Positions 3,418 to 64,000 of a DNA stretch of 64,000 nt are shown here, one piece after another. A model generated the notes under the pieces. That model saw nothing but the letters and a program-made list of their open reading frames with translations, was not told the origin of the DNA and did not search any database. Origin of the DNA: Sabellastarte sp. h YS-2021 (lineage: Eukaryota; Annelida; Polychaeta; Sabellida; Sabellidae). The stretch spans positions 152,048,881-152,112,880 of the forward strand of contig OZ024928.1 of the NCBI GenBank assembly GCA_964017235.1. The letters run 5' to 3'. Numbering within the stretch: the stretch's first letter is position 1; every line of letters begins with the position of its first letter. The position numbers and the translations under genes are program-made.

Positions 3418-5810
3418 TTAAGCATCACGCAAGGGACGCTTGGTTGTATACAGGAGAAATTCACGTGGAAATGGCCGCTGGCTCCCGCATTTTCTAATGG
3501 TTATAGCTCGGCAACCGCAGGGCAGATTCTCTTCAAATTTGGAACATAGTAGTCTCGGGAAAATTTTCTGAATATGGTGTCATGACATTTCAACCAATCA
3601 GAGATGTCACGTAACCAAAAATGTGTTTTTCGGAAGGGTGTGCTTGTCCGGATGATAACTTAAAAAGTGCTTCACTTATTCATATGAAACATGGCAAGTA
3701 GGTTAGTTGTATAGATATCTGGAAATCATTAACTTTTGGAATTGACCTGACACAAAATGGATGACTTATTAACGATTAACTAAATATTGCAATTTTTCTT
3801 AATGATGGAACTGTAAAATCTTTAATAAATTTTTTTTGGTCCTGCAGTGTATATGCAGTCATATGGCACTTTTTGCCAAAAAGATTTTCCTGACATTTTT
3901 AGTGGTCATCTTGAATTTCTGCGTACACTGCAAAAAAGCTCTTGGAAATGGTGGAGGTACAGTGATTTCGAGAAAATGTTTGGCCCACAGGGTATATGCA
4001 GATCCATCCACCACTTTTGCCAAAAATCTTTTTCTTGCCATTTTGGCAGCCACCTTGAATTTTTGCATAAAATTCAAAAACGCATTTGTTTGGAAACAGT
4101 GTGAGATAGAGCAATTTTGATGAAACTTTTAATCTGTGGGGTTTTTGCAAAAAAAGGTTTTACGCCATTTTTGGCGGCCATCTTGAATGTGTATGTAAAA
4201 CACAAAATCGTATTTATCTCGGAAACAGTGCAAGATACAGCAATTTCAACGAAATTCTCAACCGGCATGATATAAGCAGGGTCATGTGCCACTTTTTTGC
4301 CAAAAAAAACATGTTTCCCCACCATTTTTGGCTGCCATCTTGCATTTCTGGGACAATGCAAAAATTTTATCTGGGAAACATTCCAACATAGAGCAATTTC
4401 AACAAAATTTTTTAAAAGCAGGGTATTCGTATAATCATCTGCTATGTTTTATTAGGCAGGTTGCATGTAACCAACCCGCCTATTAGATTGATGTGTCCAA
4501 TGTTCGTCTGTCCATCCGTCAACATTTTCGTTTCCGGACTCTAACTCGAAAATGCTATGTCCAATCGAATTCAAACTTGGCAGGGAGATAGATCACCCTT
4601 ATAGTTAGGTTCCTTTCGAAATTGTTATAATTCCGTCCTTTCGTTTGTCCGTTTTTTGTCCGTTTGTCTCTCCATCAACATTTCTGTTTCCGGTCTCTAA
4701 CTCGAAAACACTTTGTCCAATCAAATTCAAACTTGGCACAGAAATAGATCACCCTTATAGCTAGGTTCCTTTCGAAATTGGTGTAATTCTGTCCGATCGT
4801 TTGTCCGTTTTTTGTCCGTTTGTCTCTCCGTCAACATTTCCGTTTCCGGACTCTAACTCGAAAACACTTTGTTTAATCGAATTCAAACTTGGCAGGGAGA
4901 TAGATCACCCTTATAGCTAGGTTCTTTTCGAAATTGGTGTAATTCTGTCCGTTTGTTTGTCCGTTTTTTGTCCGTTTGTCTGTCCGTCCATATTTCCATT
5001 TCCGGACTCTAACTCAAAAACACTTTGTTCAATCGAATTCAAACTTGGCAGGGAGATAGATCACCCTTACAGCTAGGTTCCTTTTGAAATTGGTGTAATT
5101 CTGTCTGTTCATTTGTCCGGGGGTTTTTTCGTTTGTCCATCAACATTTCCATTTCCGGACTCTAACTCGAAAATGCTTTGTCCAATTGAATTCAAACTTG
5201 ACAGGGAGATAGATCACCCTCGTAGCTAGGTTCCTTTCGAAATTTGTGTAATTCCGTCTGTTCATTTGTCCGTTTATAGCATAGATACAATTATGGAACC
5301 TAGATTACAAGTTTTACATTTCACAGCACTGGGTGACCTAACATTTCTTTCCTTGTTTCTAAATTTAATTACAGCAGTCCCTAACCTTATTGCTGCCTGT
5401 GCAACCCGCCTTTTGGGGCATCTTTGACCCTCTTGTTATAAATCGTGTTCCTACCATTTTTGGCGACCATCTGGAATGTGTGTATAAAACGCAAAATTGC
5501 ATTCATCTCGGAAACAGTGTGAGAAACAGTGATTAAGACAAAATTTTCAACCCACAGGGTATACGCAGGGTCAACTGCCACATTTTTGGTTGTCGTCTTG
5601 AATTTTTGTGTAAAACAGACAGTCATTGTCACTTTTTCAAAAAATCATTTTCCTGCAAGTCTTGGCAGGCAGGTTGATTTTTTGTATAAATGGAAAACAT
5701 ATTAAACAGACCAAGTTAGTCATTTCAGCAAAATCATTGATGCTCATTTTGACGCTTTGTTTTTGCTGTGCAAAAACAATTTCTTTTCTCTTGCAAAGTA
5801 ATACTCTAGT
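3418..5810 (+). mobile_element. Tandem-repeat element, family D copy 1
   Basis: Starts with TTAAGCATCACG after an A, with a GC-rich imperfect palindrome (AAGCATC ... GGGACGCTT). A head of about 380 bp shares blocks such as CATTTCAACCAATCAGAG and TGGAAATCATTA with 36288-36660. Then come units of about 150-170 bp with TTTTGCCA ... TTTTTGGCGGCCATCTTG. The 3' end has a hairpin with stem TGTTTTTGC/GCAAAAACA near 5758-5779 and terminates in CTAG (5807-5810) before T. No coding potential. A second element (4452-5435) is inserted in its array. Confidence 0.75.
4452..5435 (+). mobile_element. Nested tandem-repeat element, family A (156-bp units)
   Basis: Begins TTAGGCAGGTTGCA after an A, with left palindrome GGCAGGTTGCA / ACCAACCCGCC. 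The right end near 5399 has TGCAACCCGCC, complementary to the first arm with one mismatch, and stops at CTTG (5432-5435) before T. The interior is five units of 153-156 bp, each with CTCTAACTCGAAAA, AATTCAAACTTGGCA and a TTTGTCCGTTTTTTGTCCG stretch. Flanks rejoin as an array unit of family D, so it inserted after the D array existed. Confidence 0.75.
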
Positions 5811-6167
5811 TTGAATGTCTTTTTTTACATCTGGTTGAAACCATTTTGCTTTTAAAATATACTGATCACCAGACAAGACAGAATAAACATTTTCTGCACA
5901 TTTTCTTTTGTGGGTTGAACACATGGTTGGAACTGGCATTGGTTATTTGTTTGGAAAAAAAAACGTACTCACTGCACCTGAGCACTGTATCCTATGATGT
6001 GTAATGGCAAGTTTTCTGCATATGAAAATCACGGGGAGAATTATTGATTACCAAAACAAGCACAATGCACTGCGTTAATTCAACTCACAACTGAAAAGTT
6101 TTTCACGCATTTTTACTGTTCAACAACAATTGTTGTTTTCTTTTATAAAAGCAGCTTTTGTTCCTAT

Positions 6168-9053: not shown

Positions 9054-10186
9054 TTAAGCCATGTTAAAATTTTATGAATATGGTTATATGAGATTTGACC
9101 ACACAGAGAAGTCACATGATCAAAAGCATGTTTTTAAAAGGGGTGTCCAGATGCTAAATTAAAAAGTGTTTCACCTTTTCACATTAAATTTGGCAAGTAG
9201 GTATGTCATATAGACGTCTGGAAATCATTTACTTTTGAAAGTGATCCGATACAAAATGGCCAACTTATTAGCAATTAACTAAATGCCACAGTTTTTCTTA
9301 ACAGTGAAAATAAAAAGTCTTTAATATCTCAGAAATGTTACGAGATAGAGCGATTCTGGCGGAATTTTTGGCCGCTAGGGTATATGCAGAGTAAGCTACC
9401 ACTTTTGGGCAAAAACCGTTTTCCCACCATTTTTGCCAGCCATCTTGAATTTCAGTGTAAAACATAGAACAAATTTATGTTGGGAAATGGTGCAAGATAG
9501 TGCAATTTTGACAAAATTTTTGTATCTGGCGACTTTTTACCCAAAATTGTTTTCCCACCACTTTTGGCGGTCATCTTGAATTTCTGTGTAAAGCGCAAAA
9601 ACGCATTAATCTCGGAAACGGTTTTGTCAAAAATCATTTTCCCCCACCGTTTTTGACCCCATTGTATAGGAAGAGTCATCTAGCACTTGTCAAAAATCGT
9701 TTTCCCCACCATTTTTGGTGCCCACCTTGAATTTCTAAGTAAAACTCAAAAAACGCATTCAACTCAAAAACAATGCAAGATTGAGCAATTTCAACAAAAT
9801 TTTTGTCCTGAAGGTACACGCAGATTCATCTGCCACTTTTTGTCAAAAATCATTTCACAGCAATTTGTCGGAAATGGTGTGCGATAGAGAGTTTTGGGGG
9901 AAATTTTGGGCTCCCGGGTCATATGCAGTTATCTGACACTTTTTGTCAACCATATTTGGTGGCTATTTTGAATTCCTGGGTAAAACGCCGAAATGCATTC
10001 ATCGTGGAAGTGGTGAGAGATACAGCGATTTTGATGAAATTTATATACGCAGAGTCATCTGGCACTCTTTCAAGAAAGCATTTTCCAGCCATTTTTGGCT
10101 GGCTGGTTGAGTTTTTGCATAAAAATTACTAAACAGATCAAAATAGTCATTTCAGCAAATTTTTAATGCTCTTTGGGATGCATCTT
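9054..10186 (+). mobile_element. Tandem-repeat element, family D copy 2 (degraded)
   Basis: Begins TTAAGC after A, but the terminal palindrome is missing. The head from about 9068 matches family D (AAAATTTTATGAATATGG, GTCACATGATCAAAA, TCTGGAAATCATTTAC). Five or so degenerate units with TTTTTGGCGGTCATCTTGAA follow to about 10100. The 3' block GTCATTTCAGCAAAT also occurs in copy 1 (about 5718). The distal hairpin and CTAG are not recognisable. It sits between two parts of the minus-strand DIRS relic. Confidence 0.65.
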
Positions 10187-11174
10187 TGTGCCTGTCAAGT
10201 TGAAATTGGATACGATATCCACATAGGCCTTTGACATACTCGTACAGATATCCAGCATGAACTGCATTTGGGAAGATCCTGTTGGATCTCTGACGTGATC
10301 TCCCTGGTGGGCCCAAATATGGTGGCATGAAACTTATCAAACAGTCTCTCCCTTTGGTCCTTAGAGAGTTGGAGGGTGTTGAGACATGACTCACTGGCTA
10401 TCCCAAAGGTAGAGAGTTGGCCATGCTGATATCTTCTCAAGTCAAATGTTCCAGTTTAACCAGGTCCCTTTGTTGGACTTACACTGGGAGTCCACTCTTA
10501 TAACCAGGCTTAGTAATATTTTAGAGGGCCTGGGGTATCATCTGTTGTCTCTGCGAGTACTTGTCATCCTCTAGACTGTCTCAGTTTCCCTTGTGTGGTG
10601 GATTAACAGGAAACTTCTCTGTCTCAACTTCTCAAGAGTAATGGAAGGCCTGGGCTTCACCAACATATCCTTGTCAACGAGAAAGGTGTGTGACCATTTG
10701 GAGTATTATGGATGATGGTCTGTCACCCTTCTGTTGCTGAAGGAGAAGTGGATCATGTCCCAGGGCTGATCCTAGCTTGTGCTTCTTTTCAGATGCTGGA
10801 CCTTCTGAACCAATTCGCTGAATGGGAAATTAGGGGGAGTCACTTGTTCACCAGTGTCAGTAGGCTCTTCTCACCTTGAAGTGGTAGCAAAGGAAGATGC
10901 TGAGGTGCCTGTCCCATATACTTCTTCTAAAATGCTTCTCAACTTGATTGGGGTTGTGATAGAGATAGGTTGTTGGTTCCTCTGACTTGGCAACAAGTGG
11001 CAAGGCAAACAGTTGTGTAATTGACACAATAATTGTGTGAGTTGGTGCTGTGGATGCAGGTGCTGGCAGAGGAGCAGAAGCTGTATGTGCAGGTACCAAG
11101 TAGTCAAACACCTGCTCCATGGGCTGCTGTAGGAAGGCTTGCAGTCCTGTTTGCACAGCAGAGATGTTCCTCAT
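10187..11174 (-). pseudogene. Possible gag-like part of the DIRS relic
   Basis: Minus-strand fragments contain RRYQHGQLSTFGIASE followed by LQLSKDQRERLFDKF (about 10440-10330). This resembles the conserved Arg/His/Trp block and LFD/LFG segment I associate with DIRS gag-like proteins, and a Pro/Ala-rich open stretch lies at 10857-11174. The position upstream of the RT relic on the same strand fits a single element split by insertion of 9054-10186. Assignment is tentative; stops interrupt every frame. Confidence 0.4.
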
Positions 11175-12976
11175 TTATTTCTGGTTTTTTCTACTGTAGA
11201 TTGTACATCATTTCAAAATTCTTATGCCTTAGATGACTTGATCAACTGAGTCCTTGTGGTCTGAGGGATCTGAAAAAAGGAAGTCTGGAAAGCTGGGTAT
11301 TATGAGTTACAGTCTATAACATAGGCTAAAGAATCAGTGGCAGATTGATGAACCAGGCCCAGGCTAGAAAGCATTGCCTGGGAGATGCAAGCAGTGGAGC
11401 TAGCTCGCTGGAATGATGCCAGCCATTAGAGCACTTGATTGGGATTTCCGCGGGCTCTAAATCAAGAGGAGTCTCATCTGCTAGAGAAAATCCTCACTAG
11501 TAAATCCTGGGTTGTTGGTGTTTCCCGGGTCTTTGAAAGAGTCACCATGTGAGTCTGAATGGTTTCTTCACAAAGTTTTCCCTTAGATGAGACCATTGCT
11601 CTTCTGAAATTGCTGTACAAGTAACACAGTGTGTCATGACTGGCTCTTGACCACGGGATTTTCTTTACACTTAACCCTACAACTGTGACCATCAAACTGA
11701 GGCATAAAATGTCTGTACTTGTCCCATTTCTGGTGAGGAGAGTCTTCACCATCTTTACTACATTGGTGTGAACTATTCTAAAACACATCAGACAAAATAT
11801 AACAATACCCATGGTTAGAACACTTAAACTGATCAACAAAGTAAAAGTCACGAAATAGCCAGCTTCATAAAAAAAAAAAAAGAAGAAGAAGAACGTGAGA
11901 GAGAGATAGAAAGTAAAATGTGAGCATCTAATAGGTTGCCGAGATCACGTTGCCCTGTTAATAGGTGTACAATATACCCGTGCTGTAATATAGCAGTGAC
12001 ATTCCATTGTTCTGGATTGCCCCGGCTATCTGTATTTGTTAGTAAAGGGTTTTTAACTTTTTACTGCTTCATCTAGTAAACCACTGGTAAAGCACATTGT
12101 TTCAATAGGTGGGATTATTATATAACAATAAAAGAATAAGTGTTTAAAAGCTCTGCCCAGCAAAACTAATAACTTTCATCTCATTATTCATTAGTCTTAT
12201 GATCTTTTAAGCACTAGCTGTAGAGACCAAATTTCTCTTATTGACATGCATAAAACAGAAAAACATCTTTCAGGTAAAATCAATTGAGAAGAGCAATATA
12301 AAGGAAAATATTACTTTCCCACTAACATTATTGGATTGTTGTACTTTTTCCAACAAAGATATACTAAATCTCAGGCGATATTCATAGGTTATTGCCTGTA
12401 CACTCGTTGTACAGCTAATGATACAAGTCAGCACCAAAATTTTTTGATTGTGAAATATGTTGTCAGTCATCAAGGTCTGTGCCAACTGTAAAAATGTAAC
12501 AGATTCATTCAGTTACTGATTATTGGTTGTGCTCCTCTGCCAATGAGGTATTAAATTCATGCCATCCGTCTGTTTGTTAGCAGGATCATGCAAATACTAC
12601 TAGTTGGAACTTCATAAAAGAGAAAAGATCAGAAGATCGGTCTAAGTCCAACTGATCCCATTTAATTTTCAGAGTGATGTGGATCACTGCGTGGTTTTAA
12701 ACCTAATTTGAAACTGATCTTGAAGTTTATAAAAGAAATTTCCTGGCTACCTTAAAAATTTATATGTTAATGATATATTGGCTATCTTAAAAAATTTTAA
12801 AAATGGAGTTTTTAGCCCTTAGCTCACTTTAAAATCAACGTTGTTCACATATTAATGTTTACAACTGAAACATTTTTATTCTGATGACCTTTAAGTCAAA
12901 GATTTATTAAATTAAGCCACCTTACAGTGACAAAGGGAATTTCAGGCCTAAGTGTTTAACTTAACTTCGTTGGGTT

Positions 12977-13200
12977 TATTTGGGGTTTACGTCGCTTTCA
13001 ACACTGTATAGGTCATATCACGACGGGTAGTTGGAAGGGCAGAGGAAACCAGTACATAGAGTTCGCTAGGGTTGTGTACTGTAAACTGCCGACCAACGGC
13101 AAGCAACTACCAGCTTTCCCACTTGAGCCCGTGCGGGGATCGAACCCCGGCCTCAGAGGTGGGAGGCGAGAGTGTTACCACTCTGCCACCGTGGCCCCGC
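12977..13200 (-). mobile_element. tRNA-derived SINE (antisense)
   Basis: Reverse complement of the SINE at 21488-21717. On the minus strand it has a tRNA-like head with A box TGGCAGAGTGGTAACAC and B box GGTTCGATCCC, a conserved body (GTTGGTCGGCAGTTTACAGT) and a short tail with AAATAAA. It is flanked by perfect 17-bp target duplications CTTAACTTCGTTGGGTT at 12960-12976 and 13201-13217. Confidence 0.9.
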
Positions 13201-14459: not shown

Positions 14460-14644
14460 TTGCATTTAAGATCTATGACATGGACAAAGATGGGTACATC
14501 TCAAATGGCGAGCTGTTCCAGGTTCTGAAGATGATGGTTGGTAACAATCTCAAGGACGCACAACTCCAACAAATTGTAGACAAAACCATCATATTTGCTG
14601 ACGTGGATGGCGACGGCAAGATCTCATTTGATGAGTTCTGTGGT
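14460..14644 (+). CDS. PPP3R1: Calcineurin B exon: EF-hands 3 and 4
   Basis: Completes the split Phe codon, then encodes [19 protein letters not shown] through FDEFCG (61 full codons). EF-hand 3 loop is [12 protein letters not shown] and EF-hand 4 loop is [12 protein letters not shown]. Positions 1, 3, 5, 9 and 12 of both loops carry the expected Asp/Ser/Glu ligands and position 6 is Gly, so both should bind Ca. The stretch LQQIVDKTI between the loops is the conserved calcineurin B helix. Acceptor TTCTTGCAG ends at 14459, and donor GGT|GTAAGT (14645-14650) is in phase 0. The open frame upstream of 14460 is intron. Eight nt after the exon the intron becomes transposon. Confidence 0.97.
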
Positions 14645-14674
14645 GTAAGTGATTATGTCCACCCCACTGGGGGG

Positions 14675-15186
14675 TAGAGATGGCATCATAGCTTGCGATA
14701 TCGTGGATCTTTCGAGGTGCATTATTAATGGACGATATCGAGAAGTTCCGTTGATGGGCGATAATATCGTCATTGAAATAAATAAACAAACATGCAATAT
14801 ACTACCAACCTAAAATGCCATATTCCAACAAATATTCATAATCCCCAACAACATATAACAAAAAACTTCACATTTTTCATTATAAAATGACGACAATGTA
14901 ACAAATTTTCTGATTGGCTAATGGGGTGTGTGACCTTTCAACTCCAGCAACAGGAAGTAGATAGGAAGTGAAAAAACGAAATGAAAACAAGTATTCTAAA
15001 CTGCATTATTTTTTTTAAAAACAACAAAATTTGAGTATTTTTACAATATTTTGTGTTAGTTTACTGTTTTAATAATGAAAACAAAACAACTACCAGGATA
15101 TGTAGGTTTTCACGAACCGTTCACGATATTGTCATGAAAAGCATTGGCGATATCGACAGAAAATATTCCTCACGATGCCATCCCTA
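14675..15186. mobile_element. hAT-like MITE, 512 bp
   Basis: Perfect 8-bp target duplication CTGGGGGG at 14667-14674 and 15187-15194. Terminal inverted repeats TAGAGATGGCATCAT (left) and TAGGGATGGCATCGT (right, reverse complement). The 8-bp duplication and TAGRG termini are hallmarks of hAT elements. The interior has about five CGATAT-type motifs in both orientations and no transposase. Confidence 0.88.
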
Positions 15187-15194
15187 CTGGGGGG

Positions 15195-15897: not shown

Positions 15898-16099
15898 TTG
15901 TCTCCCGCCGGGCTTTAGCCCGGGAGGGAGATTATGAAATGATGCCTGTGTGTGCGTGCGTGCGTGCGTGCGTGTGTGCGTGCGTTAGTTAGTCACGCAG
16001 ATTCCTCCAAAACTACTACAGCTACAGATTTTTTGTAAATTAATTGTCCCAATGAATTTTCACACCCTCGAAAATTTTTTTGGTTTTATGGACTTAGGC

Positions 16100-18215
16100 C
16101 TAAAGATAACTGAGTAATAGCTATCTTAGCTACTTGGAGTAAAGGGCTCATAACTCAAAAACCATTGCAGTTACAACTTTTTCTTCAAATATGTTGTTCA
16201 GCTACTTTGTCCTTAGCTATAAGATGGTACATAGTTTGGGGTCCCATTGCATGCCATAAGTGAGTAATAGCTATTTTCTCATTTGTAGCTAAATAACAAA
16301 AGGAGTAAATGTCAAATATCTTCAAAAGTATTAGAGTTACAGAAATCTTTTCAAATATGTTGTTCATCTACATTTTGGTAAGCTATCACATAGTAAAGTT
16401 TCAGACCTGTTGCACCTTGGATAGCTGAGTAATAGCTACTTTGAAATTCTGACTGTTGAGTAAAGCCATTGTAACTCCAAAACTATTGCAGTTAGAGTGT
16501 TTTCCTAAAATATCTTGTTCAGCTACTTTGTCCTTAGCTATAAGATGGTACATAGTTTGGGGTTCTATTGCATGCCATAAGTGAGTAATAGCTATTTTCT
16601 CATTTGTAGCTAAATAACAAAAGAAGTAAATGCCAAGTATCTTCAAAAGTATTACAGTTACAGAAATCTTTTCAAATATGTTATTCATCTACTTTTGGGT
16701 AAGCTATCACATAATAAAGTTTCAGACCTGTTGCACCGTGGATAGCTGAGTAATAGCTACTTTCAAATTCCGACTGTTGAGTAAAGCCATTGTATCTCCA
16801 AAACTATTGCAGTTAGAGTGTTTTCCTAAAATATGTTGTTCAGCTACTTTGTCCTTAGCTATAAGATGGTACATAGTTTGGGGTTCTATTGCATGCCATA
16901 AGTGAGTAATAGCTATTTTCTCATTTGTAGCTAAATAACAAAAGAAGTAAATGCCAAGTATCTTCAAAAGTATTACAGTTACAGAAATCTTTTCAAATAT
17001 GTTATTCATCTACTTTTGGGTAAGCTATCACATAATAAGGTTTCAGACCTGTTGCACTGTGGATAGCTGAGTAATAGCTACTTTCAAATTCCGACTGTTG
17101 AGTAAAGCCATTGTATCTCCAAAACTATTGCAGTTCGAGTGTTTTCCTAAAATATGTTGTTCAGCTACTTTGTCCTTAGCTATAAGATGGTACATAGTTT
17201 GGGGTTCTATTGCATGCCATAAGTGAGTAATAGCTATTTTCTCATTTGTAGCTAAATAACAAAAGAAGTAAATGCCAAATATCTTCAAAAGTATTAGAGT
17301 TACAGAAATCTTTTCAAATATGTTATTCATCTACTTTTGGGTAAGCTATCACATAGTTAAGTTTCAGACCTGTTGCACCATGGATAGCTGAGTAATAGCT
17401 ACTTTCAAATTCCGACTGTTGAGTAAAGCCATTGTATCTCCAAAACTATTGCAGTTACAGTGTTTTCCTAAAATATGTTGTTCAGCTACTTTGTCCTTAG
17501 CTATAAGATGGTACATAGTTTGGGGTTCTATTGCATGCCATAAGTGAGTAATAGCTATTTTCTCATTTGTAGCTAAATAACAAAAGAAGTAAATGTCAAA
17601 TATCTTCAAAAGTATTAAAGTTAGTGAAATCTTTTCAAATATGTTGTCCATCTACTTTTTGGTAAGCTATCACATAGTAAAGTTTCAGACCTGTTGAACC
17701 TTTGATAGCTGAGTAATAGCTACTTTCAAATTCCGACGGTTGAGTAAAGCCATTGTAGCTCCAAAACTATTGCAGTTAGAGTGTTTTCCTAAAATATGTT
17801 CTTCAGCTACTTTGTCCTTAGCTATAAGATGGTACATAGTTTGGGGTTCTATTGCGTGCCATAAGTGAGTAATAGCTATTTTCTCATTTGTAGCTAAATA
17901 ACAAAAGAAGTAAATGTCAAATATCTTCAAAAGTATTAAAGTTAGGGAAATCTTTTCAAATATGTTGTCCATCTACTTTTTGGTAAGCTATCACATAGTA
18001 AAGTTTCAGACCTGTTGAATCTTTGATAGCTGAGTAATAGCTACTTTGAAATTCTGACTGTTGAGTAAAGCCATTGTAACTCCAAAACTATTGCAGTTAG
18101 AGTGTTTGCCTAAAATATGTTGTTCAGCTACTTTGTCCTTAGCTATAAGATGGTACATAGTTTGGGGTTCTATTGCATGCCATAAGTGAGTAATAGCTAT
18201 TTTCTCATTTGTAGC
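16100..18215 (+). repeat. 321-bp tandem repeat (dimer of about 160 bp), 6-7 copies
   Basis: Strict 321-bp spacing of matching sites (for example 16401, 16722, 17043, 17364, 17685). Each unit holds two related halves, one with AACTCCAAAACTATTGCAG and one with TATCTTCAAAAGTATTA. Units are nearly identical. A 95-codon open minus-strand frame recurs in each unit because of the periodicity; nothing suggests it is coding. Confidence 0.92.
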
Positions 18216-20007
18216 TAATTGAGAGCTTTCACTTGGTGAAGTTTCAGACCCTTAGCTAATTACTCACCTACTCAAAATGAGTAAATGCGAATTATCTCTA
18301 AAAGTATTGCAGATAGCCAATTTTTCTCAACTCATTCACCTACTTTTGGAAGAGCTTTCACATGGTCAAGTTTCAGACCCGTAGCTAATTACTCAAAATG
18401 AGTAAATGCTAATTATCTCTAAAAGTATTGCAGATAGCCAATTTTTCTCAAATAACTCATTCACCGACTTTTGGGAGAGCTTTCACTTGGTCAAGTTTCA
18501 GACCCGTAGCTAATTACTCACCTACTCAAAATGAGTAAAGGCGAATTATCTCTAAAAGTATTGCAGATAGCCAATTTTTCTCAAATAACTCATTCACCTA
18601 CTTTTGAGAGAGCTTTCACTTGCTGAAGTTTCAGACCTGTAGCTAATTATTCACCTACTCAAAATGAGTAAATGCAAATTATCTGTAAAAGTATTGCAGA
18701 TAGCCAATTTTTCTCAAATAACTCATTCACCTACTTTTGGAAGAGCTTTCACTTGGTGAAGTTTCAGACCCGTAGCTAATTACTCACCTGCTCAAAATGA
18801 GTAAATGCGAATCATCTCTAAAAGTATTGCAGATAGCCAATTTTTCTCAAATAACTCATTCACCTACTTTTGAGAGAGCTTTCACTTGGTGAAGTTTCAG
18901 ACCTGTAGCTAATTATTCACCTACTCAAAATGAGTAAATGCTAATTATCTCTAAAAGTATTGCAGATAGCCAATTTTTCTCAAATAACTCATTCACCTAC
19001 TTTTGAAAGAGCTTTCACTTCGTGAAGTTTCAGACCCGTAGCTAATAATTCACCTGCTGAAAATGAATAAATGCTAATTATCTCTAAAAGTATTGCAGGT
19101 AGCCAATTTTTCTCAAATAACTCCTTCAGGTACTTTTGGAAGAGCTTTCACATGGTGAAGTTTCAGATCCGTAGCTAATTACTCACCTACTCAAAATGAG
19201 TAAATGCTAATTATCTCTAAAATTATTGCAGATAGACAACTTTTCTCAAATAACTCGTTCATCTACTTTTGGGAGAGCTTTCACTTGGTAAAGTTTCAGA
19301 CCTGTAGCTAATTATTCACCTGCTGAAAATGAGTAAATGCTAATTATCTCTAAAAGTATTGCAGGTAGCCAATTTTTCTCAAATAACTCCTTCACATACT
19401 TTTGGAAGAGCTTTCACATGGTCAAGTTTCAGATCCGTAGCTAATTACTCACCTACTCAAAATGAGTAAATACGAATTATCTCTAAAAGTATTGCAGATA
19501 GCCAATTTTCTCAGATAACTCATTCACCTACTTTTGGGAGAGCTTTCACATGGTGAAATTTCAGACCCACAGCTAATTACTCACCTACTCAAAATGAGTA
19601 AATGCTAATTATCTCTAAAAGTATTGCAGATAGCCAATTTTTCTCAAATAACTCATTCACCTACTATTGGGAGAGCTTTCACTTGGTGAAGTTTCAGACC
19701 CGTAGCTAATTGTTCACCTACTTAAAATGAGTAAATGCGAATTATCTCTAAAAGTATTGCGGATAGCCAATTTTTCTCATATAACTCATTCACCTACTTT
19801 TGGGAGAGCTTTCACTTGGTGAAGTTTCAGACCTGTAGCTAATTACTCACCTACTCAAAATGAGTAAATGCTAATTATCTCTAAAAGGATTGCAGATAGC
19901 CATTTTTTGTCAAATAACTCATTCACCTACTTTTAGGAGAGCTTTCACTTGGTGAAGTTTCAGACCCATAGCTAATTACTCACCTGCTCAAAATGAGTAA
20001 ATGCTAA
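18216..20007 (+). repeat. 133-bp tandem repeat, about 13 copies
   Basis: Unit with GAGAGCTTTCACTTGGTGAA, GTTTCAGACCCGTAGCTAA, CTCAAAATGAGTAAATGC and AAAAGTATTGCAGATAGCC. Spacing measured at 18611, 18744 and 18877 is 133 bp. The array continues at 25746-26312 and 29256-29580 after nested insertions and recurs at 37620-40160. Confidence 0.93.
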
Positions 20008-20159
20008 TTATATCCCCAGACGAAAGTCGGGGATATATTGGATTCAGGTCCGTCGCGCCGCCGCCGCCGCCGCCGCCGTAGAAATTTCCTTGTGGACGCG
20101 ATAACTCAAAAACAAATTAATATTTTTTTTTCAAACTTGGTACACATGTTAAGGGTGCC

Positions 20160-22320: not shown

Positions 22321-22440
22321 TCTATTTAAATTTTGAATATTAATAATGTTATGGCTATCTTAGTCTTTTAAGAACTTATTTTTGTGTGTTATACCTCTGC
22401 TTGCTGAGTTTTTAACTTTTTAAAATGAAACTGGTTAAAC

Positions 22441-23893: not shown

Positions 23894-23901
23894 GGTTAAA
23901 C

Positions 23902-24157
23902 ATATTCAAGTAGACAAAATGGACACTTTAAGTGAGCTTTAAGTCCCAATATTAATGAAATTATATCCGTATGTAGTAAAACTAGGGGATTTTTAACCCT
24001 CAACTAGCCCAGTTTTATTCAACTTGCCTCAGTTAATTTTGACACAGCTCCTACAGTTATGAACTCATTTCAGTTGATAATCACATACTTAAAATTCTCA
24101 ATTCTTTTTGTATTTGAGTACCCCTTTTATATAGATTGTTTGTTTACCATTTTTGCT
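23902..24157 (+). repeat. Direct duplication, copy 1 (partner 24640-24942)
   Basis: Sequence from GCTTGCTGAGTTTTT (22400, before the DNA transposon) through TTTGTTTACCATTTTTGCT is repeated almost exactly at 24640-24942. Copy one is interrupted by the transposon at 22441 and ends at the LINE insertion. The second copy lacks both, so the duplication predates both insertions. Confidence 0.85.
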
Positions 24158-24600: not shown

Positions 24601-24639
24601 CAACCCACATCCCCCACCCGGATTCCCCCCACCCACCTC

Positions 24640-24942: not shown

Positions 24943-25059
24943 CCACATCCCCCACCCACCTCTGGGACCTCCAGCTATATTGAGTGACACTAAATAAACA
25001 AAGGTATTTAATGATATCAGATGAGAAACAAAGAACTCAATGGGGTTGCAGATCTTGTG

Positions 25060-25115: not shown

Positions 25116-25274
25116 TTCATTACATATAACACAAAGGGGAGTCAGAACTGAGATTGTGTCACATATTTAGGTTGCATATATATGGACCACATATATAGGT
25201 ATAGAGGAAATGAATAACTGAAAACAATTTGCAAATTCTAAAAATAATATAATAAAATAATAATATAAATAATT

Positions 25275-45100: not shown

Positions 45101-45418
45101 CCCCAAAAATGGCGGCCATTTTGAATTTTCGAATTTTTGCCAAAAATGGCAAAACACAAATTTGCTTCTATCTCCTTAACCGTGCGAGATAGAGCGATTT
45201 CGTCGAAATTTTCGACCCACAGGGTATCTAAGGAATGCAATCTTTGCAATTTTCCAAAAATTTTCCCCTCCCCAAAAATGGCGGCCATTTTGAATTTTCG
45301 AATTTTTGCCAAAAATGGCAAAACACCAATCTGCTTCTATCTCCTTAACCGTGCGAGATAGAGCGATTTCGTCAAAATTTTCGACCCACAGGGTATCTGA
45401 GCATTGTACTCTTAGTAA
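42190..45418 (+). repeat. 169-bp satellite array 1
   Basis: Monomer: CTATCTCCTTAACCGTGCGA, GATAGAGCGATTTCGTCGAA, TTTTCGACCCACAGGGTATC, TTTTCCCCTCCCC, AAAAATGGCGGCCATTTTGA, ATTTTTGCCAAAAATGGC. A block around 42.8-43.8 kb recurs 1469 bp downstream (for example 42992 and 44461, with shared rare variants such as TTCGACGCACAGG). Recurrent short frames on both strands are by-products. Confidence 0.95.
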
Positions 45419-45879
45419 TTATGTCCACCCCCCTGGGGGGTGGATATATTATTTTTGCTTTTTTCGCCGTCCGATGTCCGATGTCCGGCGTCCGGCGTCC
45501 GGCGTCCGATGTCCGGCGTCACGCATGGTTTCCGCTCATTTAAAGGAAAAGTATTAGAGCTATTGTCACCAAATTTGGTATGCAGGCTTATTGGGTCAGT
45601 AGCTTGCTTGGGATTGCTTTTGGCTGTTGTACCTCTTTTGCTTACTGAGTAATACTTAAGTACAGCTATTTTCAGTACCCATTGGTTTCCGTGCATTTAA
45701 GCCAAAATAATTAAAGATATTTTACTACAATTTTGAATACAAGATTGTTATGTCCATAGCTCGCTTGGTATTGCATTTGGGACTGATAGCTTTGTCAGTA
45801 CATGAGTAATAGCCATTTAGGTACTTCATTGTGTATTTTCAGTACTACTTTTGAGTAATTTGCTAATATCTCAGAAACC

Positions 45880-48800
45880 GTGTGAGATAGAGCGATTTCG
45901 TCGAAATTTTCGACCCACAGGGTATTTAAGGAATGTAATATTTGCAATTTTCAAAAAATTTTCCCCTCCCCGAAAATGGCGGCCATTTTGAATTTTCGAA
46001 TTTTTGCCAAAAATGGCAAAACACAAATTTGCTTCTATCTCCTTAACCGTGCGAGATAGAGCGATTTCGTCGAAATTTTCGACCCACAGGGTATCTAAGG
46101 AATGCAATCTTTGCAATTTTCAAAAAAATTTTCCCCTCCCCAAAAATGGCGGCCATTTTGAATTTTCGAATTTTTGCCAAAAATGGCAAAACACCAATCT
46201 GCTTCTATCTCCTTAACCGTGCGAGATAGAGCGATTTCGTCAAAATTTTCGACCCACAGGGTATCTGAGCATTGTACTCTTGGTAATTTTAAAAAAATTT
46301 TCCCCTCCCCAAAAATGGCGGCCATTTTGAATTTTCGAATTTTTGCCAAAAATGGCAAAACACAAATTTGCTTCTATCTCCTTAACCGTGCCAGATAGAG
46401 CGATTTCGTCAAAATTTTCGACCCACAGGGTATCTGAGCATTGTGCTCTTGGTAATTTTTACAAAATTTTCCCCTCCCCAAAAATGGCGGCCATTTTGAA
46501 TTTTCGAATTTTTGCCAAAAATGACAAAACACTAATTTGCTTCTATCTCCTTAACCGTGCGAGATAGAGCGATTTCGTCGAAATTTTCGACCCACAGGGT
46601 ATCTGAGCATTGTGCTCTTGGTAATTTTCCAAAAATTTTCCCCTCCCCAAAAATGGCGGCCATTTTGAATTTTCGAATTTTTGCCAAAAATGGCAAAACA
46701 CTAATTTGCTTCTATCTCCTTAACCGTGCGAGATAGAGCGATTTCGTCGAAATTTTCGACCCACAGGGTATCTATGGAATGCAATCTTTGCAATTTTCAA
46801 AAAAATTTTCCCCTCCCCAAAAATGGCGGCCATTTTGAATTTTCGAATTTTTGCCAAAAATGGCAAAACACCAATCTGCTTCTATCTCCTTCTCGCACTG
46901 CGAGATAGAGCGATTTCGTCGAAATTTTCGACCCACAGGGTATCTATGGAATGCAATCTTTGCAATTTTCAAAAAAATTTTCCCCTCCCCAAAAATGGCG
47001 GCCATTTTGAATTTTCGAATTTTTGCCAAAAATGGCAAAACACCAATCTGCTTCTATCTCCTTAACCGTGCGAGATAGAGCGATTTCGTCAAAATTTTCG
47101 ACCCACAGGGTATCTGAGCATTGTACTCTTGGTAATTTTAAAAAAATTTTCCCCTCCCCAAAAATGGCGGCCATTTTGAATTTTCGAATTTTTGCCAAAA
47201 ATGGCAAAACACAAATTTGCTTCTATCTCCTTAACCGTGCCAGATAGAGCGATTTCGTCAAAATTTTCGACCCACAGGGTATCTGAGCATTGTGCTCTTG
47301 GTAATTTTTACAAAATTTTCCCCTCCCCAAAAATGGCGGCCATTTTGAATTTTCGAATTTTTGCCAAAAATGACAAAACACTAATTTGCTTCTATCTCCT
47401 TAACCGTGCGAGATAGAGCGATTTCGTCGAAATTTTCGACCCACAGGGTATCTGAGCATTGTGCTCTTGGTAATTTTCCAAAAATTTTCCCCTCCCCAAA
47501 AATGGCGGCCATTTTGAATTTTCGAATTTTTGCCAAAAATGGCAAAACACAAATTTGCTTCTATCTCCTTAACCGTGCGAGATAGAGCGATTTCGTCGAA
47601 ATTTTCGACCCACAGGGTATCTAAGGAATGCAATCTTTGCAATTTTCAAAAAAATTTTCCCCTCCCCAAAAATGGCGGCCATTTTGAATTTTCGAATTTT
47701 TGCCAAAAATGGCAAAACACCAATCTGCTTCTATCTCCTTAACCGTGCGAGATAGAGCGATTTCGTCAAAATTTTCGACCCACAGGGTATCTGAGCATTG
47801 TACTCTTGGTAATTTTAAAAAAATTTTCCCCTCCCCAAAAATGGCGGCCATTTTGAATTTTCGAATTTTTGCCAAAAATGGCAAAACACAAATTTGCTTC
47901 TATCTCCTTAACCGTGCCAGATAGAGCGATTTCGTCAAAATTTTCGACCCACAGGGTATCTGAGCATTGTGCTCTTGGTAATTTTTACAAAATTTTCCCC
48001 TCCCCAAAAATGGCGGCCATTTTGAATTTTCGAATTTTTGCCAAAAATGACAAAACACTAATTTGCTTCTATCTCCTTAACCGTGCGAGATAGAGCGATT
48101 TCGTCGAAATTTTCGACCCACAGGGTATCTGAGCATTGTGCTCTTGGTAATTTTCCAAAAATTTTCCCCTCCCCAAAAATGGCGGCCATTTTGAATTTTC
48201 GAATTTTTGCCAAAAATGGCAAAACACTAATTTGCTTCTATCTCCTTAACCGTGCGAGATAGAGCGATTTCGTCGAAATTTTCGACCCACAGGGTATCTA
48301 AGGAATGCAATCTTTGCAATTTTCCAAAAATTTTCCCCTCCCCAAAAATGGCGGCCATTTTGAATTTTCGAATTTTTGCCAAAAATGGCAAAACACAAAT
48401 TTCCTTCTATCTCCTTAACCGTGCCAGATAGAGCGATTTCGTCAAAATTTTCGACCCACAGGGTATCTGAGCATTGTACTCTTGGTAATTTAAAAAAAAT
48501 TTTCCCCTCCCCAAAAATGGCGGCCATTTTGAATTTTTGAATTTTTGCCAAAAATGGCAAAACACAAATTTGCTTCTATCTCCTTAACCGTACCAGATAG
48601 AGCGATTTCGTCAAAATTTTCGACCCACAGGGTATCTGAGCATTGTACTCTTTGCAATTTTCCAAAAATTTTCCCCTCCCCAAAAATGGCGGCCATTTTG
48701 AATTTTCGAATTTTTGCCAAAAATGGCAAAACACTAATTTGCTTCTATCTCCTTAACCGTGCGAGATAGAGCGATTTCGTCGAAATTTTCGACCCACAGG

Positions 48801-51670
48801 GTAACTAAGGAATGCAATCTTTGCAATTTTCCAAAAATTTTCCCCTCCCCAAAAAATGGCGGCCATTTTGAATTTTCGAATTTTTGCCAAAAATGGCAAA
48901 ACACAAATTTCCTTCTATCTCCTTAACCGTGCGAGATAGAGCGATTTCGTCAAAATTTTCGACCCACAGGGTATCTGAGCATTGTACTCTTGGCAATTTT
49001 TTAAAAAATTTCCCCTCCCCAAATATGGCGGCCATTTTGAATTTTCGAATTTTTGCCAAAAATGGCAAAACACTAATTTGCTTCTATCTCCTTAACCGTG
49101 CGAGATAGAGTGATTTCGTCGAAATTTTCGACCCACAGGGTATCTAAGGAATGCAATCTTTGCAATTTTCCAAAAATTTTCCCCTCCCCAAAAATGGCGG
49201 CCATTTTGAATTTTCGAATTTTTGCCAAAAATGGCAAAACACAAATTTCCTTCTATCTCCTTAACCGTGCGAGATAGAGCGATTTCGTCGAAATTTTCAA
49301 CCCACAGGGTATCTAAGGAATGCAATCTTTGCAATTTTCAAAAAATTTTCCCCTCCCCAAAAATGGCGGCCATTTTGAATTTTCGAATTTTTGCCAAAAA
49401 TGGCAAAACACCAATCTGCTTCTATCTCCTTAACCGTGCGAGATAGAGCGATTTCGTCAAAATTTTCGACCCACAGGGCATCTGAGCATTGTACTCTTGG
49501 TAATTTTTAAAAAATTTTCCCCTCCCCAAAAATGGCGGCCATTTTGAATTTTCGAATTTTTGCCAAAAATGGCAAAACACAAATTTCCTCCTATCTCCTT
49601 AACCGTGCCAGATAGAGCAATTTCGTCAAAATTTTCGACCCACAGGGTATCTGAGCATTGTGCTCTTGGTAATTTTTACAAAATTTTCCCCTCCCCAAAA
49701 ATGGCGGCCATTTTGAATTTTCGAATTTTTGCCAAAAATGACAAAACACTAATTTGCTTCTATCTCCTTAACCGTGCGAGATAGAGCGATTTCGTCGAAA
49801 TTTTCGACCCACAGGGTATCTGAGCATTGTGCTCTTGGTAATTTTCCAAAAATTTTCCCCTCCCCAAAAATGGCGGCCATTTTGAATTTTCGAATTTTTG
49901 CCAAAAATGGCAAAACACTAATTTGCTTCTATCTCCTTAACCGTGCGAGATAGAGCGATTTCGTCGAAATTTTCGACCCACAGGGTATCTAAGGAATGCA
50001 ATCTTTGCAATTTTCCAAAAATTTTCCCCTCCCCAAAAATGGCGGCCATTTTGAATTTTCGAATTTTTGCCAAAAATGGCAAAACACAAATTTGCTTCTA
50101 TCTCCTTAACCGTGCCAGATAGAGCGATTTCGTCAAAATTTTCGACTCACAGGGTATCTGAGCATTGTACTCTTGGTAATTTAAAAAAAATTTTCCCCTC
50201 CCCAAAAATGGCGGCCATTTTGAATTTTCGAATTTTTGCCAAAAATGGCAAAACACAAATTTCCTCCTATCTCCTTAACCGTGCCAGATAGAGCGATTTC
50301 GTCAAAATTTTCGACCCACAGGGTATCTGAGCATTGTACTCTTGGTAATTTTTAAAAAATTTTCCCCTCCCCAAAAATGGCGGCCATTTGAATTTTCGAA
50401 TTGTTGCCAAAAATGGCAAAACACTAATTTGCTTCTATCTCCTTAACCGTGCAAGATAGAGTGATTTCGTCGAAATTTTCGACCCACAGGGTATCTAAGG
50501 AATGCAATCTTTGCAATTTTCAAAAAATTTTCCCCTCCCCAAAAATGGCGGCCATTTTGAATTTTCGAATTTTTGCCATAAATGGTAAAACACAAATTTG
50601 CTTCTATCTCCTTAACCGTGCGAGATAGAGCGATTTCGTCGAAATTTTCGACCCACAGGGTATCTAAGGAATGCAATCTTTGCAATTTTCCAACAAATTT
50701 TCCCCTCCCCAAAAATGGCAGCCATTTTGAATTTTCGAATTTTTGCCAAAAATGGCAAAACACAAATTTGCTTCTATCTCCTTAACCGTGCGAGATAGAG
50801 CGATTTCGTCGAAATTTTCGACCCACAGGGTATTTAAGGAATGCAATCTTTGCAATTTTCCAAAAAATTTTCCCCTCCCCAAAAATGGCAGCCATTTTGA
50901 ATTTTCGAATTTTTGCCAAAAATGGCAAAACACAAATTTGCTTCTATCTCCTTAACCGTGCGAGATAGAGCGATTTCGTCGAAATTTTCGACCCACAGGG
51001 TATCGAAGAAATGCAATCTTTGCAATTTTCCGAAAAATTTTCCCCTCCCCAAAAATGGCGGCCATTTTGAATTTTCGAATTTTTGCCAAAAATGGCAAAA
51101 CACAAATTTGCTTCTATCTCCTTAACCGTGCGAGATAGATCGATTTCATCAAAATTTTCGACCCACAGGTATTTCAGCATTGTATTCTTGGTAATTTAAA
51201 AAAAAATTTCCCGTCCCCTAAAATGGCGGCCATTTTGAATTTTCAAATTTTTGTCAAAAATGGCAAAACACAAATTTGCTTCTATCTCCTTAACCATGCG
51301 AGATAGAGCGATTTCGTCGAAATTTTCAACCCACAGGGTATCTAAGGAATGTAATCTTTGCAATTTTCAAAAAATTTTCCCCTCCCCAAAAATGGCAGCC
51401 ATTTTGAATTTTCGAATTTTTGCCCAAAATGGAAAAACACAAACTGGCCTTAACCGTGCAAAATAGAGTTATTTCGTTGAAATTTTCGACCCATAGGGTA
51501 TCTAAAAAATGTACTCTTGGCAATTTTCAAAAAAATTTCCTTTTCCCAAAAATGGCGGCCATTTTGAATTTTCAAATTTTTGCCAAAAATAGAAAAACAG
51601 GAATTTGCTTCTATCTTCTTAACCGTGCCAGATAGAGTGATTTCGTCAAAATTTTCAACCCAACCAATGC
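45880..51670 (+). repeat. 169-bp satellite array 2 with multi-unit blocks
   Basis: About 34 monomers of the same unit. A four-unit block of 677 bp is directly repeated at 47023 and 47700, and a related copy begins at 46174. Monomers in a block differ from each other more than copies of the block do. The last units (51.2-51.67 kb) are more diverged, as expected at array edges. One monomer near 46890 has a local CTTCTCGCACTGCG replacement. Confidence 0.95.
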
Positions 51671-52079
51671 AAAAAGGCATGAAGCTGAAATAATTTACAT
51701 CTACACTAACAAATATTTAAGCATCATTGATATATTTTACAAATGAAACAGGGTCTTGTAAGACTACTGTACAATTTGGGCAAAAGGTTCATGGGTGGAC
51801 ATTACACATGATAATGTGTGTTCTTCTATGCTATCCTGTTTCTATTCGCATCTACTATCAACAGGGCGGCCGATTTCTAGTTTAATAAAATTCTGTGTAA
51901 TTATTGCTTTCCTTATCTCACAACTAGCCCTACCTGCAGTGAGGCGGGTGGGGCAGATGACCTTGTGTCACTCTTGATTTACATACGTAAATCCAGTTGT
52001 GTAGTTCTCTTCAAACAATCATTAAGGAAAGCTTACATGGAAATTATAATATCCAACTTCTTTCTAGCCAGGGTGGATC

Positions 52080-59237: not shown

Positions 59238-59334
59238 GATGCCGGTTGTTAGTCATGATAGTATTCTATTGAAATTGTCTTGATACTAGGGATGGGTCGG
59301 TAGTTTCGGTATCGAGAGCAATTTTTATGTCAGC

Positions 59335-62300
59335 TGACTTGTCAGTCAGCTGACATTATGTCGTCACTCTGCGGCGTGGGCGTCCGCGTGAACAACTTCT
59401 CCTCCAAAACTACAAGGCCTAGAGACGTGCTGTTTTTTTTAAAAGATACCTTATCTATCGAGGATGAAAAATTGTTCAAGGCATGCAAATCTGTCTGTTC
59501 GTCTGTTTGCTAGAGACATTACAAGGGGGGTACCCCCACCAAAAGTATGAAAATTTCAACACTTAATCAAAATTTTCTCAGTGACTATTGCAGGGATTTC
59601 TCTCATATCTTGCATATATGTACTAGGCCAGAGGTAGATTCTCTTGTGTGAGTATGAGACCTGGATCTGTCTTACTTTTTTTTAAATAAATTTTTTTAAT
59701 AATTTTTAATGCATTAAAATTCATGAAATCATGCACAAAATCATTTATAACTTGAAAAGTGTTGCATTTAGAGCATTTTGTTAAAATATGTTATTCAGCT
59801 ACTTTTTTCATAGCTACAATATGGTGAGTAAGTTGGGTGCCTGTCTCAATAGCTAAGTGAGTAATAGCTACTTTTGGGCTTTTCAGTAACTTCCATCATG
59901 AGTAAAATCACTTGAAACTTAAAAACTATTGCATTTAGAGAATTTCGTATAAATATGTTATTCAGCTACTTTTGGGTCAGCTATAACATAGTAAAATTTT
60001 AGACCTGTAGCTCATGGCATAGCTGAGTAATAGCTACTTTTAGGTTATCACTGTTGAGTAAATCGCTTATAACTTCAAAACTATTGCATTTAGAGAATTT
60101 CGTATGAATATGTTATTCAGCTACTTTTGGGTCAGCTATAACATAGTAAAATTTCAGACCTGTAGCTCATGGATTAGCTGAGTAATAGCTACTTTTAGGT
60201 TATCACTGTTGAGTAAATCGCTTATAACTTGGAAACTATTGCATTTACAGTATTTTGTTTCAATATGTTATTCACCTATTTTGGGATCAGCTATAACATA
60301 GTGAAGTTTCAGATCTGTGGCTCATTGCATAGCTGAGTAATAGCTACTTTGAAGTTCTCACTATTGAGTAAATCACTTGTAACTTAAAACCTATTGCATT
60401 TAGAGAATTTTGTATAAACATGTTATTCAGCTACTTTTGGGCCAGCTATAACATAGTGAAATTTCAGATCTGTAGGTCATGGCATAGCTGAGTAATAGCT
60501 ACTTTAAAGTTCTCACTATTGAGTAAATCAGTTGTAATTGGAAAACTATTGCATTTAGAGTATTTCGTATAAATATGTTATTCAGCTACTTTTGGGTCAG
60601 CTATAACATAGTAAAATTTCAGACCTGTAGCTCATGGCATAGCTGAGTAATAGCTACTTTTAGGTCATCACTATTGAGTAAATCAGTTGTAACTTGAAAA
60701 CTATTGCATTTACAGTATTTTGCTTAAATATGTTGTTCACCTACTTTTGGGTCAGCTATAACATAGTAAAATTTCAGACCTGTAGCTCATTGCATAGCTG
60801 AGTAATAACTGCTTTGAGGTTCTCACTATTGAGTAAATCAGTTGTAATTGCAAAACTATTGCATTTAGAGAATTTAGTATAAATATGTTATTCAGCTACT
60901 TTTGGGCCAGCTATAACATAGTGAAATTTCAGATCTGTAGGTCATGGCACAGCTGAGTAATAGCTACTTTGAAGTTCTCACTATTGAGTAAATCAGTTGT
61001 AATTGGAAAACTATTGCATTTACAGAATTTCGTATAAATATGTTATTCAGCTACTTTTGGGTCAGCTATAACATAGTAAAATTTCTGACCTGTAGCTCAT
61101 GGCATAGCTGAGTCATAGCTACTTTTAGGTTATCACTGTTGAGTAAATCGCTTATAACTTGGAAACTATTGCATTTACAGTATTTTGTTTCAATATGTTA
61201 TTCACCTATTTTGGGATCAGCTATAACATAGTGAAGTTTCAGATCTGTGGCTCATTGCATAGCTGAGTAATAGCTACTTTGAAGTTCTCACTATTGAGTA
61301 AATCACTTGTAACTTAAAACCTATTGCATTTAGAGAATTTTGCATAAACATGTTATTCAGCTACTTTTGGGCCAGCTATAACATAGTGAAATTTCAGATC
61401 TGTAGGTCATGGCATAGCTGAGTAATAGCTACTTTAAAGTTCTCACTATTGAGTAAATCAGTTGTAATTGGAAAACTATTGCATTTAGAGTATTTCGTAT
61501 AAATATGTTATTCAGCTACTTTTGGGTCAGCTATAACATAGTAAAATTTCAGACCTGTAGCTCATGGCATAGCTGAGTAATAGCTACTTTTAGGTCATCA
61601 CTATTGAGTAAATCAGTTGTAACTTGAAAACTATTGCATTTACAGTATTTTGCTTAAATATGTTGTTCACCTACTTTTGGGTCAGCTATAACATAGTAAA
61701 ATTTCAGACCTGTAGCTCATTGCATAGCTGAGTAATAACTGCTTTGAGGTTCTCACTATTGAGTAAATCAGTTGTAATTGCAAAACTATTGCATTTAGAG
61801 AATTTAGTATAAATATGTTATTCAGCTACTTTTGGGCCAGCTATAACATAGTGAAATTTCAGATCTGTAGGTCATGGCACAGCTGAGTAATAGCTACTTT
61901 GAAGTTCTCACTATTGAGTAAATCAGTTGTAATTGGAAAACTATTGCATTTACAGAATTTCGTATAAATATGTTATTCAGCTACTTTTGGGTCAGCTATA
62001 ACATAGTAAAATTTCTGACCTGTAGCTCATGGCATAGCTGAGTCATAGCTACTTTTAGGTTATCACTGTTGAGTAAATCGCTTATAACTTGGAAACTATT
62101 GCATTTACAGTATTTTGTTTCAATATGTTATTCACCTATTTTGGGATCAGCTATAACATAGTGAAGTTTCAGATCTGTGGCTCATTGCATAGCTGAGTAA
62201 TAGCTACTTTGAAGTTCTCACTATTGAGTAAATCACTTGTAACTTAAAACCTATTGCATTTAGAGAATTTTGCATAAACATGTTATTCAGCTACTTTTGG

Positions 62301-64000
62301 GCCAGCTATAACATAGTGAAATTTCAGATCTGTAGGTCATGGCATAGCTGAGTAATAGCTACTTTAAAGTTCTCACTATTGAGTAAATCAGTTGTAATTG
62401 GAAAACTATTGCATTTAGAGTATTTCGTATAAATATGTTATTCAGCTACTTTTGGGTCAGCTATAACATAGTAAAATTTCAGACCTGTAGCTCATGGCAT
62501 AGCTGAGTAATAGCTACTTTTAGGTCATCACTATTGAGTAAATCAGTTGTAACTTGAAAACTATTGCATTTACAGTGTTTTGCTTAAATATGTTGTTCAC
62601 CTACTTTTGGGTCAGCTATAACATAGTAAAATTTCAGACCTGTAGCTCATTGCATAGCTGAGTAATAACTACTTTGAGGTTCTCACTATTGAGTAAATCA
62701 GTTGTAATTGCAAAACTATTGCATTTAGAGAATTTCGTATAAATATGTTATTCAGCTACTTTTGGGCCAGCTATAACATAGTGAAATTTCAGATCTGTAG
62801 ATCATGGCACAGCTGAGTAATAGCTACTTTGAAGTTCTCACTATTGAGTAAATCAGTTGTAATTGGAAAACTATTGCATTTACAGAATTTCGTATAAATA
62901 TGTTATTCAGCTACTTTTGGGTCAGCTATAACATAGTAAAATTTCAGACCTGTAGCTCATGGCATAGCTGAGTAATAGCTACTTTTAGGTCATCACTATT
63001 GAGTAAATCAGTTGTAACTTCAAAACTATTGCATTTACAGTATTTTGCTTAAATATGTTGTTCACCTACTTTTGGGTCAGCTATAACATAGTAAAATTTT
63101 AGACCTGTAGCTCATTGCATAGCTGAGTAATGACTACTTTGAGGTTCTCACTATTGAGTAAATCAGTTGTAATTGCAAAACTATTGCATTTAGAGAATTT
63201 AGTATAAATATGTTATTCAGCTACTTTTGGGTCAGCTATAACATAGTAAAATTTCAGACCTGTAGCTCATGGCATAGCTGAGTAATAGCTACTTTTAGGT
63301 CATCACTATTGAGTAAATCAGTTGTAACTTGAAAACTATTGCATGTACAGTATTTTGCTTAAATATGTTGTTCACCTACTTTTGGGTCAGCTATAACATA
63401 GTAAAATTTCAGACCTGTAGCTCATGGCACAACTGAGCAATAGCTATTCTCAGGCACTGACTGTTGAGTAAATTGGCTATAACTTGAAAAATATTGCATT
63501 TGGAGTATTTTGTTAAAATATATTGTTCACCTACTTTTGGGTTAGCTATAACATAGTGAAATTACAGACCTATAGCTCATGGCATAGCAGAGCAATAGCT
63601 ATTTTCAGGTTCTCACTATTGAGTAAATCAGTTGTAACTTGAAAACTATTGGATTTACAGTATTTTGCTTAAATATGTTGTTCACCTACTTTTAGGTCAG
63701 CTATAACAGAGCAAAAATTCAGACATGTAGCTCATGGCATAGCTGAGTAATAGTTACTTTGAGGTTCTCACTCTTGAGTAAATCAGTAGTAACTTGAAAA
63801 CTATTTAGAGTATTTTGTTAAATATGTTATTCACAGACGTTTTGGTCAGCTATAACATAGTGAAATTGCAGTCCTCTATGTCATGGCATAGCTGATCAAT
63901 AGCTTCTTTCAGGTTCTCACTGTTGAGTAAATCATTGTATCCAACCTGTAGGAAATCATGGGCTGGGAATCTGTTAATATGGTCCGATTTGACTTTGGAA
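59335..64000 (+). mobile_element. Family E element with 155-bp satellite (runs off the window)
   Basis: TTATGTCAGCTGAC and GTCAGCTGACATTATG form a perfect 12-bp-arm palindrome at 59337-59366. CGGCGTGGGCGTCCGCGTG and CTGTCTGTTCGTCTGTTT stretches follow, then from about 59690 a 155-bp array (AACTTGAAAACTATTGCATT, TTTGGGTCAGCTATAACATA, ATAGCTGAGTAATAGCTAC) continues to the window end. The 3' terminus is not in view. Confidence 0.75.
60190..63900 (+). repeat. 155-bp satellite with 930-bp higher-order repeat
   Basis: Six distinct monomers form a 930-bp block repeated almost identically: GAGTAAATCGCTTATAACTT at 60211, 61141 and 62071; AATTTAGTAT at 60871 and 61801 (AATTTCGTAT at 62731). From about 63.0 kb the order shifts by three units and monomers become more diverged toward 63.9 kb. 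Confidence 0.95.

Follow-up and report, generated by a model that had tools for sequence, protein, structure and literature searches.

The window, a stretch of 64,000 nt (C2:152048881-152112880 of a 1.786-Gb genome), contains a nest of repeat-bearing elements in which 44,290 of the 64,000 bases belong to named elements, counting the foreign insertions inside them and with the edge of one copy (D2) approximate. TRF returned 45 array rows for the window, including monomers of 156, 157/337, 321, 133, 351, 169, 154, and 155 bp, and Rfam at gathering thresholds gave no match within it. All of the elements lie on the forward strand. The first is D1 (3418-5809, right end CTAG), a family D copy interrupted by the family A element (4452-5435), which is read here as a HINE, a non-autonomous Helentron, and which comprises a TTAGG 5′ palindrome, a GTCC-type simple repeat, an array of five 156-bp monomers, and the right end CTTG. 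A decayed D-like copy, D2, follows at 9054-10200, with its right edge set approximately by eye. B1 (14653-36220, right end CTAG) is a family B copy that reaches 21.6 kb with its nested insertions, and its array holds the 13.8-kb C element (15898-29675), which consists of 321-bp and then 133-bp monomers and ends in CTTG. Nested within C are G (20008-25745, right end CTAG), inserted in the 133-bp array; B2 (26334-28544), a family B copy with a 169-bp array and the right end CTAG; and the right part of an F copy (28585-29255), with a 154-bp array, an inverted repeat, a hairpin with an 8-bp stem, and CTAG followed by T. The left end of F was not seen within the window; an F-type left end, TTGTATCCCC, is present in other genome loci.

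Downstream of B1, D3 (36288-40666, right end CTAG) contains a 5′-truncated C-family segment (37623-40252) made up of a 133-bp array and a C-type right end CTTG, then A. The 133-bp array sets in at nearly the same monomer phase, as judged by eye, in C (at 18221) and in this segment (at 37623). B3 (41753-45418) has a left end and a 169-bp array, and no right-end motif comes between it and B4 (45419-51880), whose left end lies inside a B3 monomer and whose 169-bp array runs to 34 copies (5.8 kb). Four left-end motifs of B were therefore counted in the window against three right-end motifs, with B3 (41753) and B4 (45419) sharing the single CTAG right end at 51880. The last element, E, with a 155-bp array, occupies 59325-64000 and extends out of the window to 65037, where its right end CTTG places it with the CTTG group; its start, given as 59335 in an earlier reading made from the sequence only, was corrected to 59325.

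Several other features were recorded in and around these elements. An insertion in B1 (30726-35795, approximate), which we take to be PIF/Harbinger, has DDE_Tnp_4 across two ORFs (31165-32019 and 32009-32458), a MADF/Myb protein on the opposite strand (33772-34989), and a 43-bp array (32551-32950); its own ends were not found. The 5′ palindrome of B1 is split by a MITE at 14667-15194, presumably hAT-like, with 8-bp direct repeats CTGGGGGG on both flanks. Just before B1, 14500-14645 reads like an exon of an EF-hand protein, presumably calcineurin B-like. SINE-like copies in opposite orientation at 21488-21717 and 12970-13198, with arms 91% and 98% complementary, are read by us as a putative tRNA-derived SINE. 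Within G, the stretch 22430-23890 is bounded by repeated ACACCCC inverted motifs, and a copy of G elsewhere in the genome, in the locus R4 described below, is ∼1.7 kb shorter there.

The nine elements with both ends (A, B1, B2, B4, C, D1, D3, E, and G) were compared in one frame, with the right end of E taken from locus L045 and that of B4 being the one common to B3 and B4. All nine start with TTA or TTG, end in CTAG or CTTG, and are followed by T, and the C-like segment in D3, which precedes A, is an exception to the T rule. The base preceding the left end was A in seven and T in two, in agreement with the sequence-only reading. Its left ends at 4452, 14653, 15898, 20008, 26334, 36288, 41753, and 45419 were confirmed, as were its right ends, CTAG for B, D, F, and G and CTTG for A and C, and the arrays of 130- to 350-bp monomers it had described were found at 133 to 351 bp. 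Of the left ends it had assigned to family D, the one at 36288 held, and the one at 9054 proved to belong to a decayed relative in which a palindrome is not clearly recognizable.

To score inverted repeats, the first 30 nt of each element were matched against its last 110 nt, allowing at most one mismatch, and compared with 1,500 random pairs (median 7, 95% point 9). The longest match was 11 positions in A, 11 in each of three B copies, 12 in C, 12 in G, and 13 in E, values that were equalled in 8 to 28 of the 1,500 random pairs. Subterminal inverted repeats of 11 to 13 positions are thus above chance in seven of the nine elements, whereas the matches of D1 (8) and D3 (7) are not, being equalled in 392 and 866 random pairs, respectively. 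A hairpin scan of the right ends in the window gave strong stems near D1 and F only; two E relatives also have strong stems, and the 3′ stems of A, B, and C appeared short or weak by eye. The shared terminal plan proposed from the sequence is real and is that of HINEs, with the qualification that both D copies are at chance level in the inverted-repeat test and that some elements start with TTG. The families have this plan and the CTNG end in common, not sequence; the refuting condition of ends with nothing in common between families comes close to applying, but at the level of sequence only.

Genome-wide, the right ends of A and B were found to be fixed, not variable. A 34-nt pattern for A-type ends, in which two positions were left open to include both A and its coding relatives, has 1,555 exact copies (0 for the reversed-pattern control), of which 1,545 are followed by T and 10 are not. 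The 27-nt right-end motif of B occurs 8,661 times (control, 0); when the genome was searched by DNA similarity for the B end, using a tool that passes over very common words, no candidates were returned. Two of the B right-end motifs, at C1:5772114 and 5772283, are 169 bp apart, which is the monomer length, and the end motif may therefore itself have joined a tandem array.

B copies were also found joined end to start. The seamless junction, CTAG directly followed by TTATGTCC, has 26 exact copies genome-wide (control, 0), and four B junctions on C1 are spaced 4,673 to 4,674 bp apart. Locus L046 contains two of these junctions and has a unit length of 4,674 bp; two of its units agree at 99.3% in their 1,516-nt tails, and a gapped comparison with the next unit gave 99.97% identity over 3,811 aligned bases, with one gap. 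The copies in these concatemers adjoin without any host base between them, and such seamless junctions are a signature of rolling-circle replication. It is possible, though we consider it doubtful, that the head-to-tail arrays and the paired left ends of B3 and B4 instead arose from unequal crossing-over or segmental duplication. The left flank of B4 matches the B3 monomer at 24/24 positions, while the right flank does not fit, so that B4 probably started out as an insertion, and one right end could afterwards have been lost by recombination of alike arrays. Crossing-over can also lengthen an existing first tandem, which the near-identical L046 units would fit. However, host bases would be expected between end and start after crossing-over of separate insertions, and the 26 exact junctions hold none. 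For the B3/B4 pair taken alone, an origin by crossing-over or duplication is possible.

The sequence-only reading had stated that no Rep gene lies in the window, and none of the 24 matches to PF14214 (Rep) listed for the genome, a minimum number, is located there. Twenty kilobases were read around ten of these matches. Four of the loci (R4, R6, R7, and R9) share at least 98.5% identity across long stretches, and the A right end is present in full in R6, R7, and R9 and cut in R4, which diverges within it. The 5′ ends were examined in R7 and R9, and each has two A-type 5′ ends with arrays upstream of the Rep gene; in R7, a simple repeat was detected after the first of the two. The R7 element spans C3:168666690-168678957 (12.3 kb). 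Compared with the A element of the window, the partner agrees at 44 of 47 nt at the 5′ end and at 33 of 36 nt at the 3′ end (for R7, 51 of the last 60 nt, counted from the alignment); identity is 73 to 80% within the array part and 77% in the final 184 aligned columns. The subTIR is identical between the two at the 3′ end (GCAACCCGCCT), and at the 5′ end the identical stretch does not reach 11 bp. The sequence TTAGTAAATAATT, at which the R4/R7 alignment begins, was rejected as the 5′ end of the partner because 80 of its 81 genome copies share letters upstream and A-type 5′ ends lie up to ∼1.45 kb further upstream.

The open frame of R7 has 2,245 codons from stop to stop, with the first Met at codon 41, and encodes the domains DUF6570, Helitron_like_N, and PIF1, with the HUH motif SPHLH at residue 1031 and the two-tyrosine stretch YIASY. 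Its C-terminal stretch resembles the AP-endonuclease of R2; tblastn from a clear endonuclease to R7 gave an E value of 8e-20, and the Pfam endonuclease score on the R4 copy was 24.0 bits against a cut-off of 24.5. The top-scoring named relative of the Rep protein belongs to the gastropod Littorina saxatilis (identity 47%, query coverage 91%), and bivalves, corals, and other marine invertebrates are represented among the best 120 of 197 hits. By its content of Rep, PIF1, and AP-endonuclease, the element is a Helentron, and with its A-type ends and related satellite array it is the likely autonomous partner of family A in the same genome. Nested insertions are common here, and the four loci could in principle be unrelated Helentrons hit by an A HINE. 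This is very unlikely, however, as in R7 and R9 the gene has an A-type 5′ end and array in front of it, oriented alike, and the boundaries are shared by copies from different chromosomal locations.

A Rep/helicase element sharing its ends, as the sequence-only reading had proposed to look for, was thus found for family A. For family B there is one decayed candidate, R5, a single copy that may be the partner and is treated as a lead only; B-type 5′ remains with arrays are followed there by what is left of a Rep gene, an F insertion, remains of an endonuclease, and a truncated B right end, in this order. No partner for C, D, E, F, or G was found among the ten loci read of the at least 24. An end-motif scan of five of the ten (R1, R2, R3, R8, and R13) gave no match, end-finding scripts around the same five gave no convincing end, and reading parts of R1 and R3 revealed none. 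R8 has a reverse F-type left end and R1 a C-like left end, which are not necessarily those of the Rep element itself. R2 and R8, which have Rep, helicase, and endonuclease, contain F-like arrays in reverse, and the ends of these two elements could not be defined. In R1 (L025 and L026 joined), a 352-bp repeat of nine copies with 100% TRF matches was observed at 16838-20000, running to the edge of the stretch.

Empty sites provided direct evidence on the mode of insertion. When the flanks of G were joined, they matched an uninterrupted 133-bp monomer at 25855 with 0 mismatches of 48, and the joined flanks of C matched a B1 monomer with 2 mismatches of 48. The second copy of G lies in the Rep locus R4, and the three near-identical Rep copies R6, R7, and R9 are empty there (TTTA^TTTTGG). 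Zero bases are duplicated at these sites (G twice, C once), so that insertion between A and T was observed for C and G without the target duplications that had been named as evidence against the proposed plan. Empty sites sought within the window for B1, B2, D1, and D3 were not found (best, 16 to 22 of 48 mismatches), and the best one for A was weak (16 of 48). Canonical Helitrons (Helitron1) that acquired satellites would also insert between A and T, without target duplication and with CTNG right ends. Their combination of 5′ TC with 3′ CTRR is however absent from all nine elements, which have TT...CTAG or TT...CTTG; inverted repeats are present at both ends, and the A partner bears an endonuclease domain, making such an origin extremely improbable. 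MITE-like cut-and-paste elements, to which the inverted repeats and palindromes at the ends might point, are barely conceivable given the lack of target duplication in C and G, the subterminal position of the right-hand repeats, and the asymmetry of the ends, and for C and G they are ruled out by the empty sites.

The ends, the empty sites of C and G, the head-to-tail B concatemers, and the A-family Rep/helicase/endonuclease element with both A ends argue that the elements of the window are HINEs, that is, non-autonomous Helentrons and hence rolling-circle transposons, with a probability of roughly 0.93. With the enzymology of nicking, peeling, and joining inferred from Helitron work, a Rep/PIF1/endonuclease protein encoded elsewhere would cut a single strand at the 5′ TT terminus, and this strand would be peeled off by rolling-circle replication up to the 3′ signal (subterminal repeat, often a hairpin, and CTNG) and joined between A and T without target duplication. 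The end-to-start concatemers of B would arise when termination fails. The satellite array lies between fixed ends and travels with them, and it may grow by recombination or by partial rolling-circle runs. Satellite arrays in turn serve as landing sites for further elements, as for C, G, and B4. Since both partner copies read at the 5′ end hold two A-type 5′ ends, each with an array, before the Rep gene, it can tentatively be suggested that the autonomous Helentron acts as a satellite nursery, in which partial rolling-circle runs from the 5′ end might build the parent array and HINEs might be internal-deletion derivatives that spread it.

This type of element is already known from oysters and flies, and the families described here are further members of it. 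The large satellite cargo and the 5′ palindrome had been called non-standard in the sequence-only reading, but both have been described for HINEs, in Cg_HINE of the oyster Crassostrea gigas (PMC7492417) and in Drosophila DINE-1 (PMC4067079). In the available passages on Cg_HINE (PMC7492417), the features shared with the present elements are a 5′ subTIR with a complementary inverted repeat, a short GTCY/GTCC-type microsatellite, a satellite array, a 3′ subTIR with a palindrome, T-rich insertion without duplication, several unrelated families, and two arrays in one element. The arrays of Cg_HINE are called short there, whereas one found here reaches 34 monomers (5.8 kb), and the elements here are deeply nested. 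DINE-1/HINE elements and Helentrons, as described in passages of PMC4067079, likewise have palindromic subTIRs, a 3′ stem-loop, no duplication, a TT target with variable Ts, a Rep/helicase/endonuclease partner, and tandem repeats in some copies; the ends found here, TT...CTNG between A and T, are close to the proto-Helentron ends of that paper. The partner found here bears a satellite array itself, and none is stated for autonomous Helentrons in those passages. A literature search covering mostly abstracts and few subscription papers, without supplements, and thus giving weak evidence of absence, returned no report of an autonomous Helentron with the satellite of its HINEs. Helitron concatemers, described at second hand (PMC5876387, PMC12628747), also show head-to-tail junctions and several 5′ ends with one 3′ end; the concatemers found here differ in belonging to animal HINEs with satellite cargo.

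It has been proposed that satellite DNA can originate from Helentrons that carry satellites. The oyster study of 2020 named no enzyme source, and in the parts of it available its autonomous elements could not be related to its HINEs (PMC7492417). The likely advance here is that a satellite HINE family, A, is tied to a coding parent bearing a related satellite. A single animal genome now joins a coding partner, its derivatives with satellite cargo, end-to-start concatemers, and clean empty sites, and a connection of rolling-circle transposition with the birth of satellites can thereby be tested. In contrast to Cg_HINE as presented in those parts of the oyster study (PMC7492417), family A has an autonomous element linked to it.
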